Shown: positions 3,493 to 11,164 of the stretch, one piece after another
Layout: the number at the start of each line of letters is the position of its first letter
Numbering within the stretch: the first letter of the stretch is position 1
Assembly (NCBI GenBank): GCA_937892665.1
Contig: CALBJF010000343.1
Coordinates: 1-12,398, forward strand
Length of the DNA stretch: 12,398 bases
From: an uncultured euryarchaeote
Lineage (GTDB): Archaea; Thermoplasmatota; Poseidoniia; Poseidoniales; Poseidoniaceae
Direction of reading: 5' to 3'
Translations under genes and position numbers: made by a program
Notes under the pieces: model-generated
What the model was told of the DNA's origin: nothing
Seen by the model: the letters and a program-made list of their open reading frames with translations, nothing else
Databases searched by the model: none

Positions 3493-3538
3493 AAAGCACG
3501 GAAATCTTTAGAAACCGTCTGTATTAAGGCCAATTTCC

Positions 3539-4369
3539 ATGTCAGATGAACGAGTATTTCCCGGACCATCGCCCGCCCAAGCAGACACACTCAACGCTTG
3601 GAGAGAACTGTTTGAATCCAAACATAGCGAGGACTTTAGATCCCTAAAAGGGACTGATTGTCTTGAGCAGCCAATCTTTCCGTTTGAAGTCGATTACAGA
3701 GATATTGATCGCAACGATGTGCTAAGCCTTTACTTTAATGAAATACCAGAGGAAACGATAGAACTTGCAAATGAAGTTCTTCGCACAATGGTCGCTGAGT
3801 ATGAGGTTAGCGACATTCGATGTATACTCCGTCCCCTCTTCCTCCCACCCGAACGCACAATGAGTATTTCCTCCTTACGAATGAGAAACAGAGGTAAAAT
3901 TGTTAGTTCTGTGGTGAGAGTCAAGGATGTAGGACCTCGCTTAGGCTATCTGCAAGAGGCGCTCTATGTGTGTGTTCGCTGTGAGGCGAGAGATATCGTC
4001 AAACAAAAAATTGCTCGGGAGAGAAAACGTCCTGAAGGACCTTGTCAAGATTGCTTCAATAAAGCGATGGAAACGTTTGAAGGTAAAATCCCATATGGTG
4101 TTTATGAACGCCTGAAATCTTCGATGAAACTCACTGCTGAGGGTTCATTTTACAAAGATATTCAATATTTGTCTGTTTCAGATATCGACGACTCATCTGG
4201 GCAACCAATTTGGGTCGTTATAGACGATGAATATGTAGATACTTACAAGATTGGAGACACTGTGAGAATCAATGGCGTCGTCCAGATAGATCCTGTCCCT
4301 GATAGAAACTTCATGAAAGATACACGACGTATTCTACAAATTCATGCATTCAGTATTGAGAATCTGTGA
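3539..4369 (+). CDS. Stand-alone MCM N-terminal-like zinc/OB-fold protein without ATPase domain
   Basis: A 276-residue protein whose layout follows the N-terminal region of archaeal MCM replicative helicase. A helical part (about 46-90; FPFEVDYRDID, then ELANEVLRTMVAEYE) resembles MCM subdomain A. GKIVSSVVRVKDVGPRL (119-135) matches the start of the OB fold and the allosteric-loop region. A four-Cys zinc site follows (C145-x2-C148, C169-x2-C172). SFYKDIQYLSVSD (203-215) and VIDDEYVDTYKIGDTVRING (227-246) match the closing OB strands, ending in VVQIDPVP. In MCM this region binds DNA and drives ring assembly. The protein stops where the linker to the AAA+ domain would begin, so no Walker motifs are present and it cannot be a helicase by itself. 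The C-terminus is short and clean, so this is not an obvious truncation. Possible roles are a ssDNA-binding protein, an MCM regulator or a diverged paralogue. Stop lies 7 bases from the convergent tyrS stop. Confidence 0.8.
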   Translation: MSDERVFPGPSPAQADTLNAWRELFESKHSEDFRSLKGTDCLEQPIFPFEVDYRDIDRNDVLSLYFNEIPEETIELANEVLRTMVAEYEVSDIRCILRPLFLPPERTMSISSLRMRNRGKIVSSVVRVKDVGPRLGYLQEALYVCVRCEARDIVKQKIARERKRPEGPCQDCFNKAMETFEGKIPYGVYERLKSSMKLTAEGSFYKDIQYLSVSDIDDSSGQPIWVVIDDEYVDTYKIGDTVRINGVVQIDPVPDRNFMKDTRRILQIHAFSIENL

Positions 4370-8603: not shown

Positions 8604-9899
8604 TCACACGTTCGGAAGCAATCCAATTCTTGCAAAACCTGACCAAACTGGGTCAAGGAACCTTGGAAGGAATCTGTGTCGAAGATAGACAGCAGCAGCC
8701 AGAGAAAGCTTCTGTACCTTGGAAAGACCGACTCGACGGGTAAATACATCTCCTTGTTGCTTCTCTATTTGCTTCAAGATTTTATCGTAGAATGCAATCA
8801 TAGCCGCAGGGGAATAACGAGTTCGTCGAGGGAGCAGAGGTAGTAGTTGGCGTGCTTCTTCCAAATAGGTTCGAGCTCGCTTAGCATAATGATGGCAGTA
8901 AGGCTCCCATGAAGAATTGAGAACAACTTTTCCTCCTTGAAGGTCTTCTTCACCGATACCGTTGTGTTCAAGTTCATCAAGAGGAAGGTAAACTCGATCT
9001 CGCTCGATATCCTCGCCCACGTCACGTAGTACGTTCGTTAGTTGCATGAATATGCCCCATGATTCAGCAAATTTTCTGGCACGAGGATCATCATATCCGT
9101 AAATTTCTATACACATTAGGCCAACAACAGAAGCTACTCTGTAACAATAAACATAGAGTTCATCGAATGTTCTATAGCGATTACTATACAGATCATCTTC
9201 CATACCAGAGATGAGATCGTCAAAGACACTACGAGGGATTGCGTAGCGCTCTACGGTATCCTTGAGTGCAAGGAAAACTGGGTCTGTGCTGTAAACGCCT
9301 GAATAACATGTAGAAAGTTTCTTTCTGAAGAAAAAGAGTTGATTGATTTTGTTAAGGTATACTTCATTGTCGAGAATAGTCGTTCTTTGTTGCAAAGACT
9401 CAAGTTGTTCTCGGTATTCGATTGATTCTTGACTCAACTCGCCTTCTGCACCAGGGAAACGATCTGCCCAATCACCATCAGCGATGTCATCTGCACGACG
9501 ACAGAATGCATAGACTGCACACATTGCTTGGCGTTGATCATCTGGAAGATATTTGAACGAATGATAGAAGTTTCCGGCTTCTCTCTTGGTCAATTCCTCA
9601 CAATATTTGTAAGCAAGACGATGGAGTTCAGCAGGGGGTTTATCCGACCAGATAGGGGCATCTAAATCTGCAAAAGGATCGACAAGTTCATTCTCCTCTC
9701 CGATAATTCCAATCATGAGTGCTCCTTCACGAAGGGCTTCCATTGCAGTCATGCTCACGGCTTTAACTGCGTCTCTAGCTAACATAACACCTGCTCTGAG
9801 GCGGTCGAGCGGAGTTGGGTTTTTCTTGGCTGAAACAGAACTCTCTGCTCCTCCCTTTAACGGGAAGAGAAGGTCTAAGGGTTTTCGACGTTCCAGCAT
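8604..9899 (-). CDS. Squalene/phytoene synthase family enzyme, phytoene synthase-like
   Basis: A 431-residue head-to-head prenyltransferase. The core (about 90-400) carries both Asp-rich motifs that bind the diphosphates through Mg2+: DDIAD (137-141) and RDVGEDIERDRVYLP (292-306). Also present are YHSFKYLP (112-119), AVYAFCRRADD (128-138) and YCYRVASVVGLMCIEIYGY (251-269), all typical of CrtB/HpnD-type enzymes. It probably condenses two GGPP to phytoene, the first carotenoid step and a source of retinal, although squalene-type activity cannot be excluded. An N-terminal extension of about 90 residues, basic at its beginning and then helical (ARDAVKAVSMTAMEALREGA, 41-60), is not part of the usual fold. 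The C-terminus (HRFLPRFLDPVWSGFARIG) is hydrophobic/basic and may touch the membrane. ATG 9899 is the first possible start after an in-frame TAA. It follows a second family member by 120 bases and has its own TATA-like box. Confidence 0.9.
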   Translation of the reverse strand: MLERRKPLDLLFPLKGGAESSVSAKKNPTPLDRLRAGVMLARDAVKAVSMTAMEALREGALMIGIIGEENELVDPFADLDAPIWSDKPPAELHRLAYKYCEELTKREAGNFYHSFKYLPDDQRQAMCAVYAFCRRADDIADGDWADRFPGAEGELSQESIEYREQLESLQQRTTILDNEVYLNKINQLFFFRKKLSTCYSGVYSTDPVFLALKDTVERYAIPRSVFDDLISGMEDDLYSNRYRTFDELYVYCYRVASVVGLMCIEIYGYDDPRARKFAESWGIFMQLTNVLRDVGEDIERDRVYLPLDELEHNGIGEEDLQGGKVVLNSSWEPYCHHYAKRARTYLEEARQLLPLLPRRTRYSPAAMIAFYDKILKQIEKQQGDVFTRRVGLSKVQKLSLAAAVYLRHRFLPRFLDPVWSGFARIGLLPNV

Positions 9900-10019: not shown

Positions 10020-11075
10020 TTACTTATCTTTATTTTTTTCAAGTAAACGACGCACTCCCCCAGGAATAACCAGGGCTCGTAATAATTTCCTTGCATAAGA
10101 TTTCATCTCATCTCTTGTAACCTTAATCCGTTCATCCGAATCTAAAATATTACCAGTCCTAAGGAGAGTCACTGTACGTTGGCCGATTAGTACAGGCAAC
10201 ATACAGGATGCTTTGAGACGGAATTGTTTGTCTGGAAGCATTCGAATGTAATCTGTAGCAGCCTCGAGATGGTCATTTGTTAAATCCAAATATGCATCGT
10301 AGAGTGGACGGAATGAATCCAGATTCGAATCATCCAAGAGATCTTCTGGAACTAATCCGTTCTTTTCGAGTTCTTCACTTGGAATGTAACATCGGCCAAA
10401 ACGTAAATCTTCAGGAATATCTCGAAGAATATTGATCATTTGAAGGGCCTTTCCGAATCGAATTCCTTTCTCAAGGAATATCTTCTCTTTCTCAGGAGAC
10501 AGCGTCATAAGATGAACAAGAGACATTTTGCTCCAAAACGTACCAACGCAACCTGCGACTCTGTAGGCATAATCATCTAATTCCTCATCCGAGGTGAGGG
10601 ACAAAATACCCCCACCTTCCATTGCTGTTCCAAAGCGTTTAAGATCAAGAATCTGGCCACCTACAATTACTTCTAAGCATTCAAGAATTCGATTCCGGTC
10701 TCCTTCATCATACTCTAGTAATCCTTCAATTACATCTTCAGCATTTAGAAGAAGTTCAGCCTCATGTGGATTCGTTTGAATCGCTGCTAGGCCTGAGAAA
10801 TCGGGTAAGTTGGTTTCACGTCCCTGAACTACATTGTTGTATTTTTCCAGAAAATCAAGTAAGATTTCGGCCTCTCCATGCTTAGAATCAGCAATCGTGT
10901 CGGCGAGTCGGGCCAAAAGATAGAGCAAACCAATCTGACCACGTACCTTTTTTGGAAGATATTTCAGGGTTGGATAAAAGGAACGTGAGGTCGTTTCGAG
11001 AAGTTTGTCTATTTTAGCATTGATTAGAACTGCCACTGACTCCTCTCCTGTCAGTCCCAACCGACTCTTCCGCAT
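10020..11075 (-). CDS. Squalene/phytoene synthase family enzyme, squalene synthase-like
   Basis: A 351-residue second head-to-head prenyltransferase. From ATG 11075, the first Asp-rich motif is DTIAD (59-63) within the stretch GLLYLLARLADTIADS, and the second is RDIPEDLRFGRCYIP (218-232). ETTSRSFYPTLKYLPKKVR (27-45) and YRVAGCVGTFWSKM (171-184) resemble squalene synthase-type members, where SRSF and Y.VAG.VG are hallmarks. It probably makes a C30 (or C40) hydrocarbon or its presqualene-type intermediate from prenyl diphosphates; the exact chain length is unknown. The two family members in this window are divergent in sequence, not a recent duplication. ATG 11075 is preferred to an upstream in-frame TTG at 11099; no ribosome site is seen, so it may be leaderless. 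The C-terminus is basic (RRLLEKNKDK). It is transcribed before the phytoene synthase-like gene and divergently from the zinc-ribbon gene. Confidence 0.88.
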   Translation of the reverse strand: MRKSRLGLTGEESVAVLINAKIDKLLETTSRSFYPTLKYLPKKVRGQIGLLYLLARLADTIADSKHGEAEILLDFLEKYNNVVQGRETNLPDFSGLAAIQTNPHEAELLLNAEDVIEGLLEYDEGDRNRILECLEVIVGGQILDLKRFGTAMEGGGILSLTSDEELDDYAYRVAGCVGTFWSKMSLVHLMTLSPEKEKIFLEKGIRFGKALQMINILRDIPEDLRFGRCYIPSEELEKNGLVPEDLLDDSNLDSFRPLYDAYLDLTNDHLEAATDYIRMLPDKQFRLKASCMLPVLIGQRTVTLLRTGNILDSDERIKVTRDEMKSYARKLLRALVIPGGVRRLLEKNKDK

Positions 11076-11164
11076 GAAGATTCGTGTTCTCACTGGCAAA
11101 TTTTCGTGCCCATAATACAGAAGACTTTAGATTGAAGGGGCGGTACGTATGCATAGGTGAGGAG
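11076..11164. promoter_or_regulatory. Divergent promoter region before the zinc-ribbon and squalene synthase-like genes
   Basis: This 89-base gap must hold the start signals of two genes that point away from each other. CATAATACAG (about 11111-11120) is a weak TATA-like element: reverse TATTATG lies about 35-40 bp before ATG 11075, and the forward reading would start near 11135. AGGTGA (11155-11160) ends 4 bases before ATG 11165 and is a good ribosome site for the zinc-ribbon gene. Nothing else stands out. Confidence 0.35.

Follow-up and report, generated by a model that had tools for sequence, protein, structure and literature searches.

A conserved stand-alone protein homologous in sequence to the archaeal MCM N-terminal domain in Poseidoniales

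Introduction

Archaea and eukaryotes use MCM as their replicative helicase. Eukaryotes also have Mcm10, a replication factor that has OB and zinc parts and no motor. To our knowledge, Mcm10 is not a paralogue of the MCM N-terminal domain (MCM-N); on this general description, an analogy of role with the protein described here is possible.

The best point of comparison is archaeal MCM-N itself. According to the passages available of one study, Pfu MCM-N binds ssDNA on its own, mainly via R124 and R186 with K129 helping, and the substitutions R124A and R186A each lower ssDNA binding 6-7 fold (PMC3970758). Passages of another study report that hexamer-defective Pfu mutants show no binding in the ssDNA assay, and they place F179 centrally in the subunit interface and P130 in the intersubunit beta-sheet (PMC4627082). 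Additional archaeal copies of mcm have been described as well: Methanococcales and Thermococcus kodakarensis have extra MCM homologues, only one copy being essential, and the passages seen of that work mention no motor-less form (PMC3984812).

Here we describe an additional archaeal copy that lacks the motor. It lies in a 12,398-nucleotide stretch of DNA (the window) from an uncultured member of the Poseidoniaceae, whose genome assembly (1.73 Mb) is 82.8% complete. The gene (positions 3539..4369, plus strand) is a complete open reading frame of 276 amino acids with an ATG start and a TGA stop. The protein shares with the archaeal MCM N-domain (1ltl, 4me3, and 4pof; PF17207 and PF14551) its pattern of zinc cysteines and homology over residues 14-275. 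Unlike that domain, it is encoded by a separate gene without an AAA+ region, it does not keep the first basic residue of the MCM ssDNA-binding site (MSSB) or a segment of the type of the allosteric loop (ACL), and it has two motifs, LRMRxR and DTRR, that MCM does not. We found no description of a protein made up of an MCM N-domain alone in the literature searched (subscription journals and preprints lay largely outside it), including the passages seen of PMC3970758, PMC4153887, PMC9258230, PMC3984812, and PMC4627082. Among the matches listed, those relatives that have a name at all in databases are called hypothetical protein or MCM. A free, conserved paralogue of the N-domain offers a natural test of what the N-tier of MCM is capable of without its motor.

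Homology to the MCM N-terminal domain

Taken alone, the window protein matches the NCBIfam model for MCM (NF040949) with residues 49-264 against profile positions 36-241 of 682 (E = 9.5e-10); the score is 37 bits, where the cut-off for a full protein is 940, and only the N-terminal part is matched. It falls under the Pfam cut-off for MCM_OB (20.4 vs 24.8 bits, E = 4.7e-4), and precomputed matches to PF17207 are shown for many of its relatives among the matches listed. MCM N-domains are also the top matches when the single sequence is searched against the PDB (E about 0.002).

For more sensitive comparisons we used a profile of 19 diverse stand-alone copies from genera g1, g2, g3, g5, and g8 (alignment A2) and a less diverse profile (A3). 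Within A2, MCM_OB is matched at E ≤ 0.01 by 16 of the 19 members and NF040949 by all 19. The best five PDB matches of the A2 profile have E values of 3.9e-17 to 1.1e-12 (1ltl, 3.9e-17; 4me3, 1.1e-14; 4pof, 4.1e-13), and of its 22 matches at E ≤ 0.001, 21 are named MCM, Cdc21, or Cdc54 and one is named only 'DNA helicase'. With A3, the best E value is 1e-9, and non-MCM zinc proteins first appear at E = 0.03. Finally, profile-profile alignment (hhalign) with 22 full-length Thermoplasmatota MCMs trimmed to the N-domain gave a probability of 99.9 and an E value of 6.3e-31, and it spans 244 columns and takes in the A subdomain; as a negative control, alignment with TyrS gave a probability of 0.2. 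By sequence comparison, homology to the archaeal MCM N-terminal domain is thus confirmed over residues 14-275.

In the profile-profile alignment, the helical A subdomain corresponds to residues ~14-107 (3578..3859, plus strand; the boundary was set by reading), a region that is weak when scored alone (Pfam MCM_N, E = 0.12, window protein). The zinc-ribbon-like C145-xx-C148-x20-C169-xx-C172 (3971..4054, plus strand) follows, and its four cysteines are kept in 19/19 stand-alone copies. Nothing of the MCM linker or the AAA+ domain follows the OB fold, where the protein stops. The MCM-N architecture without a motor, which the initial annotation had read from this one sequence, is borne out by the profile-profile alignment and by the NF040949 match, which ends at position 241. 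The same annotation would have been undone if the best structural match were some other OB/zinc family. On such a reading, the likeness to MCM would be convergent. The window protein alone does score under the MCM_OB cut-off, and a generic zinc ribbon also matches 4/19 members, but the best match is to MCM in both the PDB profile search and the profile-profile alignment, and the latter extends through the A subdomain. Given this contradiction by the sequences, we regard another family as having next to no chance of being correct.

Full-length MCM in the same genomes

A separate full-length mcm, for which the annotation had suggested a search, is indeed present in the genome of the window (G000:C399, a 724-aa frame, AAA+ E = 7e-91). 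PF00493 gave this one full-length MCM and two weak matches under the cut-off there. Of 18 genomes searched for the motor, 17 have one or more full-length MCMs, including 9/9 carriers of the stand-alone gene; none was found in G141 (87% complete). The remaining PF00493 matches in the 18 genomes are partial, at no more than 34.5 bits vs 252-341 for MCM, and we read them as other AAA+ proteins. A motor encoded as a split gene for the stand-alone protein was not found with PF00493 in the window's genome or the 18 genomes. We also rejected an apparent motor fusion at locus L032 (a 661-aa open frame) because the additional frame runs antisense to etfB. Genome G229 (g8) encodes two full-length MCMs; the second (L145, G229:C16:28000-32000) has the better AAA+ score, and frames at L145 do not match the A2 profile.

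Compensation for a missing Orc1/Cdc6 was rejected because Cdc6_C is present in all 20 genomes considered (in family f1, 10 carriers and eight non-carriers; in family f2, two). Four genomes have a second orc1/cdc6-type gene that shares a contig with the stand-alone gene, at a distance of ~48-81 kb (G049:C1, G258:C10, G024:C26, and G015:C1). The GINS model PF05916 had no match in the window's genome; this model matches only 1/14 controls.

Distribution and genomic locus

Protein searches returned 144, 145, and 185 relatives. Those with lengths given (120 listed of 144) have 275-305 aa, contrary to the possibility, raised with the initial annotation, that all relatives carry an AAA+ domain and this copy is a truncated allele. 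The annotation had also suggested a survey of orthologues across Thermoplasmatota. Conserved orthologues do exist, and they do not extend across the phylum: among the matches listed from 389 Thermoplasmatota genomes, the stand-alone form is seen only in family f1 (inferred to be Poseidoniaceae, with f2 as its sister family in Poseidoniales), and most other matches listed lie in frames of ~680 aa or more. Three short frames outside f1 (in G146, G169, and G061) were rejected as stand-alone copies: motor sequence is present, with a contig end or a frame break.

Within f1, 105/170 genomes, from 6/11 genera, carry the gene (match at E ≤ 1e-25), so the window gene is not a truncated allele. Among f1 genomes with a completeness of 90% or more and a contamination of 5% or less, the fraction is 18/21. 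By genus, the carriers number 20 in g1, 46 in g2, 29 in g3, seven in g5, one in g8, and two in g10; some are contig-end fragments. One scan of viral contigs with A2, run on a single peptide pattern, produced 14 matches, none of them a relative, and a viral origin was rejected. One contig titled as an uncultured Rhodobiaceae bacterium (L048, CALDQY010000161.1) carries the archaeal locus and is surely from a mislabelled bin.

In the window, etfB/etfA lie upstream and are divergent from the stand-alone gene, and a TyrS-like gene lies downstream and is convergent with it (names read from translations). The stand-alone gene lies between etfB and tyrS in 48/50 loci, one (L053) being a remnant; many loci of this set are near-duplicates of one another, and contig ends truncate L043 and L052. 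The start is conserved across the stand-alone copies. The g10 arrangement differs in that an acyl-CoA dehydrogenase gene separates tyrS from the stand-alone gene. In 9/9 genomes examined from g4 (G164, G377, G103, and G155), g7 (G141), and non-carriers of g2 (G261, G340, G130, and G218), tyrS adjoins etfB with a gap of less than ~180 bp; these nine junctions are clean absences of the gene. Elsewhere among the genomes examined, tyrS has other neighbours (G106 of g6; G300 and G379 of g9; G112, G045, G357, and G179 of f2), G115 stops at the contig edge, and no tyrS was found in G347. A frame-broken remnant of the gene occupies the conserved locus in L053 (UBA124; L053:2666-2910) and in G383 (G383:C93, L117), which are probably one genome.

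Selection, rate of evolution, and origin

The gene is under purifying selection. Compared with six g1 relatives, its dN/dS is 0.025-0.059 (NG86), although dS exceeds 1 for three of these relatives; with YN00, the values for five relatives are 0.036-0.050 (L039 was not computable). Of 21 further g1 pairs, 17 are saturated and four have dN/dS of 0.025-0.068. These values bear on whether the gene is a truncated or decaying copy of mcm without function. Decay would fit with the remnant in G383 and L053, with copies in L050 and G469 that are split between frames or pieces (perhaps assembly errors), and with the gene's being missing from many genomes. However, selection and distribution contradict it, as do the conserved locus and start and the four zinc cysteines in 19/19 copies. 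We therefore consider decay very improbable, and the initial view that this is not a decaying fragment holds up (dN/dS as above, 105/170 genomes, 48/50 loci).

The stand-alone protein also evolves faster than MCM across genera. The window protein is 31-35% identical to the g2 and g3 copies, whereas the MCM N-domain from the same genome is 70% identical to that of g2 and 66% to that of g3 (for TyrS, 71-77%).

In a tree of 19 stand-alone copies, 32 MCM N-domains, and three PDB sequences, the stand-alone copies form one clade (support 100/100), which joins the Poseidoniales MCMs (98/88) and whose stem measures 3.2 changes per site. Because these copies form a single long-branch clade that is rooted with the Poseidoniales MCMs, a single origin by an old duplication of mcm is well supported. 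In the best tree, the stand-alone split precedes the divergence of f1 and f2, and an origin inside Poseidoniaceae is not rejected (AU test, P = 0.117, or 0.089 without the outgroup); the exact branching place is uncertain because of the long branches.

Residues lost and gained relative to MCM

We compared the 19 stand-alone copies (g1, g2, g3, g5, and g8; g10 is outside this set) with 32 full-length MCMs. At the first MSSB site (Pfu R124), the MCMs have K or R in 32/32, vs a basic residue (R) in 1/19 stand-alone copies and D in nine; the window protein has D130 (3926..3928, plus strand). The position of Pfu K129 is R or K in 28/32 MCMs vs 0/19 stand-alone copies. One residue away, g1 copies have R134 (R in 4/19), which could be a partial replacement for the lost basic residues. 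At the second MSSB site (Pfu R186), where the window protein aligns S212 (4172..4174, plus strand), a basic residue is found in 2/19 copies. Only the first site is diagnostic, because the second is already Glu in 32/32 MCMs of the phylum. A segment of the form QE-x-PE...G-x-QP-x-R, present in at least 30/32 MCMs at each column listed, is not conserved in the stand-alone copies; by reading, we equate it with the allosteric (motor-coupling) loop, the ACL.

The initial annotation had named ssDNA binding as one possible job for the protein. Binding of the canonical MCM-N kind would be in line with an OB fold by homology and with the ability of Pfu MCM-N alone to bind ssDNA (PMC3970758). This idea is weakened, and canonical binding becomes doubtful, because the first basic MSSB residue is gone in 18/19 copies. 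The second site is rarely basic, either of the two Pfu substitutions suffices for a 6-7 fold loss (PMC3970758), and hexamer-defective Pfu mutants do not bind in the assay (PMC4627082). We consider it improbable that the stand-alone protein binds ssDNA as MCM-N does.

The stand-alone copies have also gained invariant arginine motifs. The motifs LRMRxR (LRMRNR in the window protein, residues 113-118; 3875..3892, plus strand) and DTRR (residues 261-264; 4319..4330, plus strand) are found in 19/19 stand-alone copies and 0/32 MCM N-domains. Inside the zinc region, ARER (residues 159-162; 4013..4024, plus strand) represents an ARxR string that occurs in 19/19 copies (A159, R160, and R162 are each in 19/19) and somewhere in 6/32 MCM N-domains. 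R118, R162, R263, and R264 are Arg in 19/19 copies and in 0/32 MCMs, and the position of R256 is a gap in 31/32 MCMs. R116 and R160 are less special than the other invariant arginines: position 116 is Lys in 7/32 MCMs, and position 160 is Arg in 6/32 and Arg or Lys in 8/32. Two divergent g10 copies (L141 and L142) keep the four cysteines and have LRTRDR; DTRR and ARxR are absent from them.

Positions at the subunit interface of MCM have changed as well. The place of Pfu F179 is Tyr in 19/19 stand-alone copies, vs L in 15, F in nine, Y in five, and M in three of the MCMs. The place of Pfu P130 is Pro in 32/32 MCMs and Gly in 19/19 stand-alone copies. A third position, which we tentatively take to be that of Pfu F240, is Phe in 31/32 MCMs and Arg in 19/19 stand-alone copies.

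Possible roles

The interface positions that have changed, and with them several of the new arginines, map to the subunit-interface and channel elements of MCM; therefore, a new nucleic-acid site and a contact with MCM would both fit. Our tentative preference, held with a little less than even confidence, is that the protein is a neofunctionalised, non-catalytic accessory that binds nucleic acid or the replisome and is dispensable in some lineages. On this proposal, mcm would have been duplicated, most likely in the Poseidoniales stem or in early Poseidoniaceae, and the duplicate would have lost its AAA+ half, with a burst of sequence change. The scaffold of A domain, zinc site, and OB fold would have been kept, while ssDNA binding in the manner of MCM and signalling to the motor would have been lost. 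A new Arg-rich surface, including LRMRxR and DTRR, would then most likely hold nucleic acid or a partner in the replisome. Such an accessory would be useful yet dispensable, the latter because several lineages do not have the gene. The invariant arginines could also serve folding or protein contacts rather than nucleic acid.

A second possibility is that the protein regulates the full-length MCM ring, as a motor-less subunit that would dock on or in the N-tier and limit loading, double-hexamer contact, or activation. As a paralogue of the MCM N-domain that coexists with full-length MCM in all nine carriers checked, with its zinc site intact and an invariant Tyr at the interface place of F179, the protein would fit this role. 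On the other side, the interface Pro has become Gly and the putative F240 Phe has become Arg in every copy, the protein diverges faster than the MCM it would have to contact, and g4 and others keep MCM without having the gene. We consider regulation of the ring a real possibility, though probably not the correct one. A more specific version, in which this lineage-specific protein is dedicated to controlling the archaeal replicative helicase and docks on the N-tier of MCM as a brake or an assembly factor, is in our view unlikely, if not very much so. Contact with MCM, if it occurs, would make the protein a helicase regulator of a new kind. Between the two kinds of contact, we favour the new nucleic-acid site, as our preferred accessory reading allows, given how fast the protein evolves and that whole genera lack the gene.

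Upstream element and neighbouring genes

Upstream of the gene, 20-32 nt 5' of the ATG, lies TTTAGAAACCGTC (3507..3519, plus strand). This sequence may be a promoter or regulatory element, and as a full 13-mer it has a single exact match in the window. The shorter AACCGTC is found 26-27 nt 5' of the ATG in 24/49 stand-alone genes (g1, g2, and g3 copies), and other g1 copies have variants of it. A search of five genomes for a regulon sharing the upstream motif gave 33 matches vs 10 with the reversed control, and at least one of the 33 seems to lie inside the tyrS coding sequence. Further along the window, two neighbouring genes on the minus strand (8604-9899 and 10020-11099) resemble phytoene/squalene synthases, as read from their translations.
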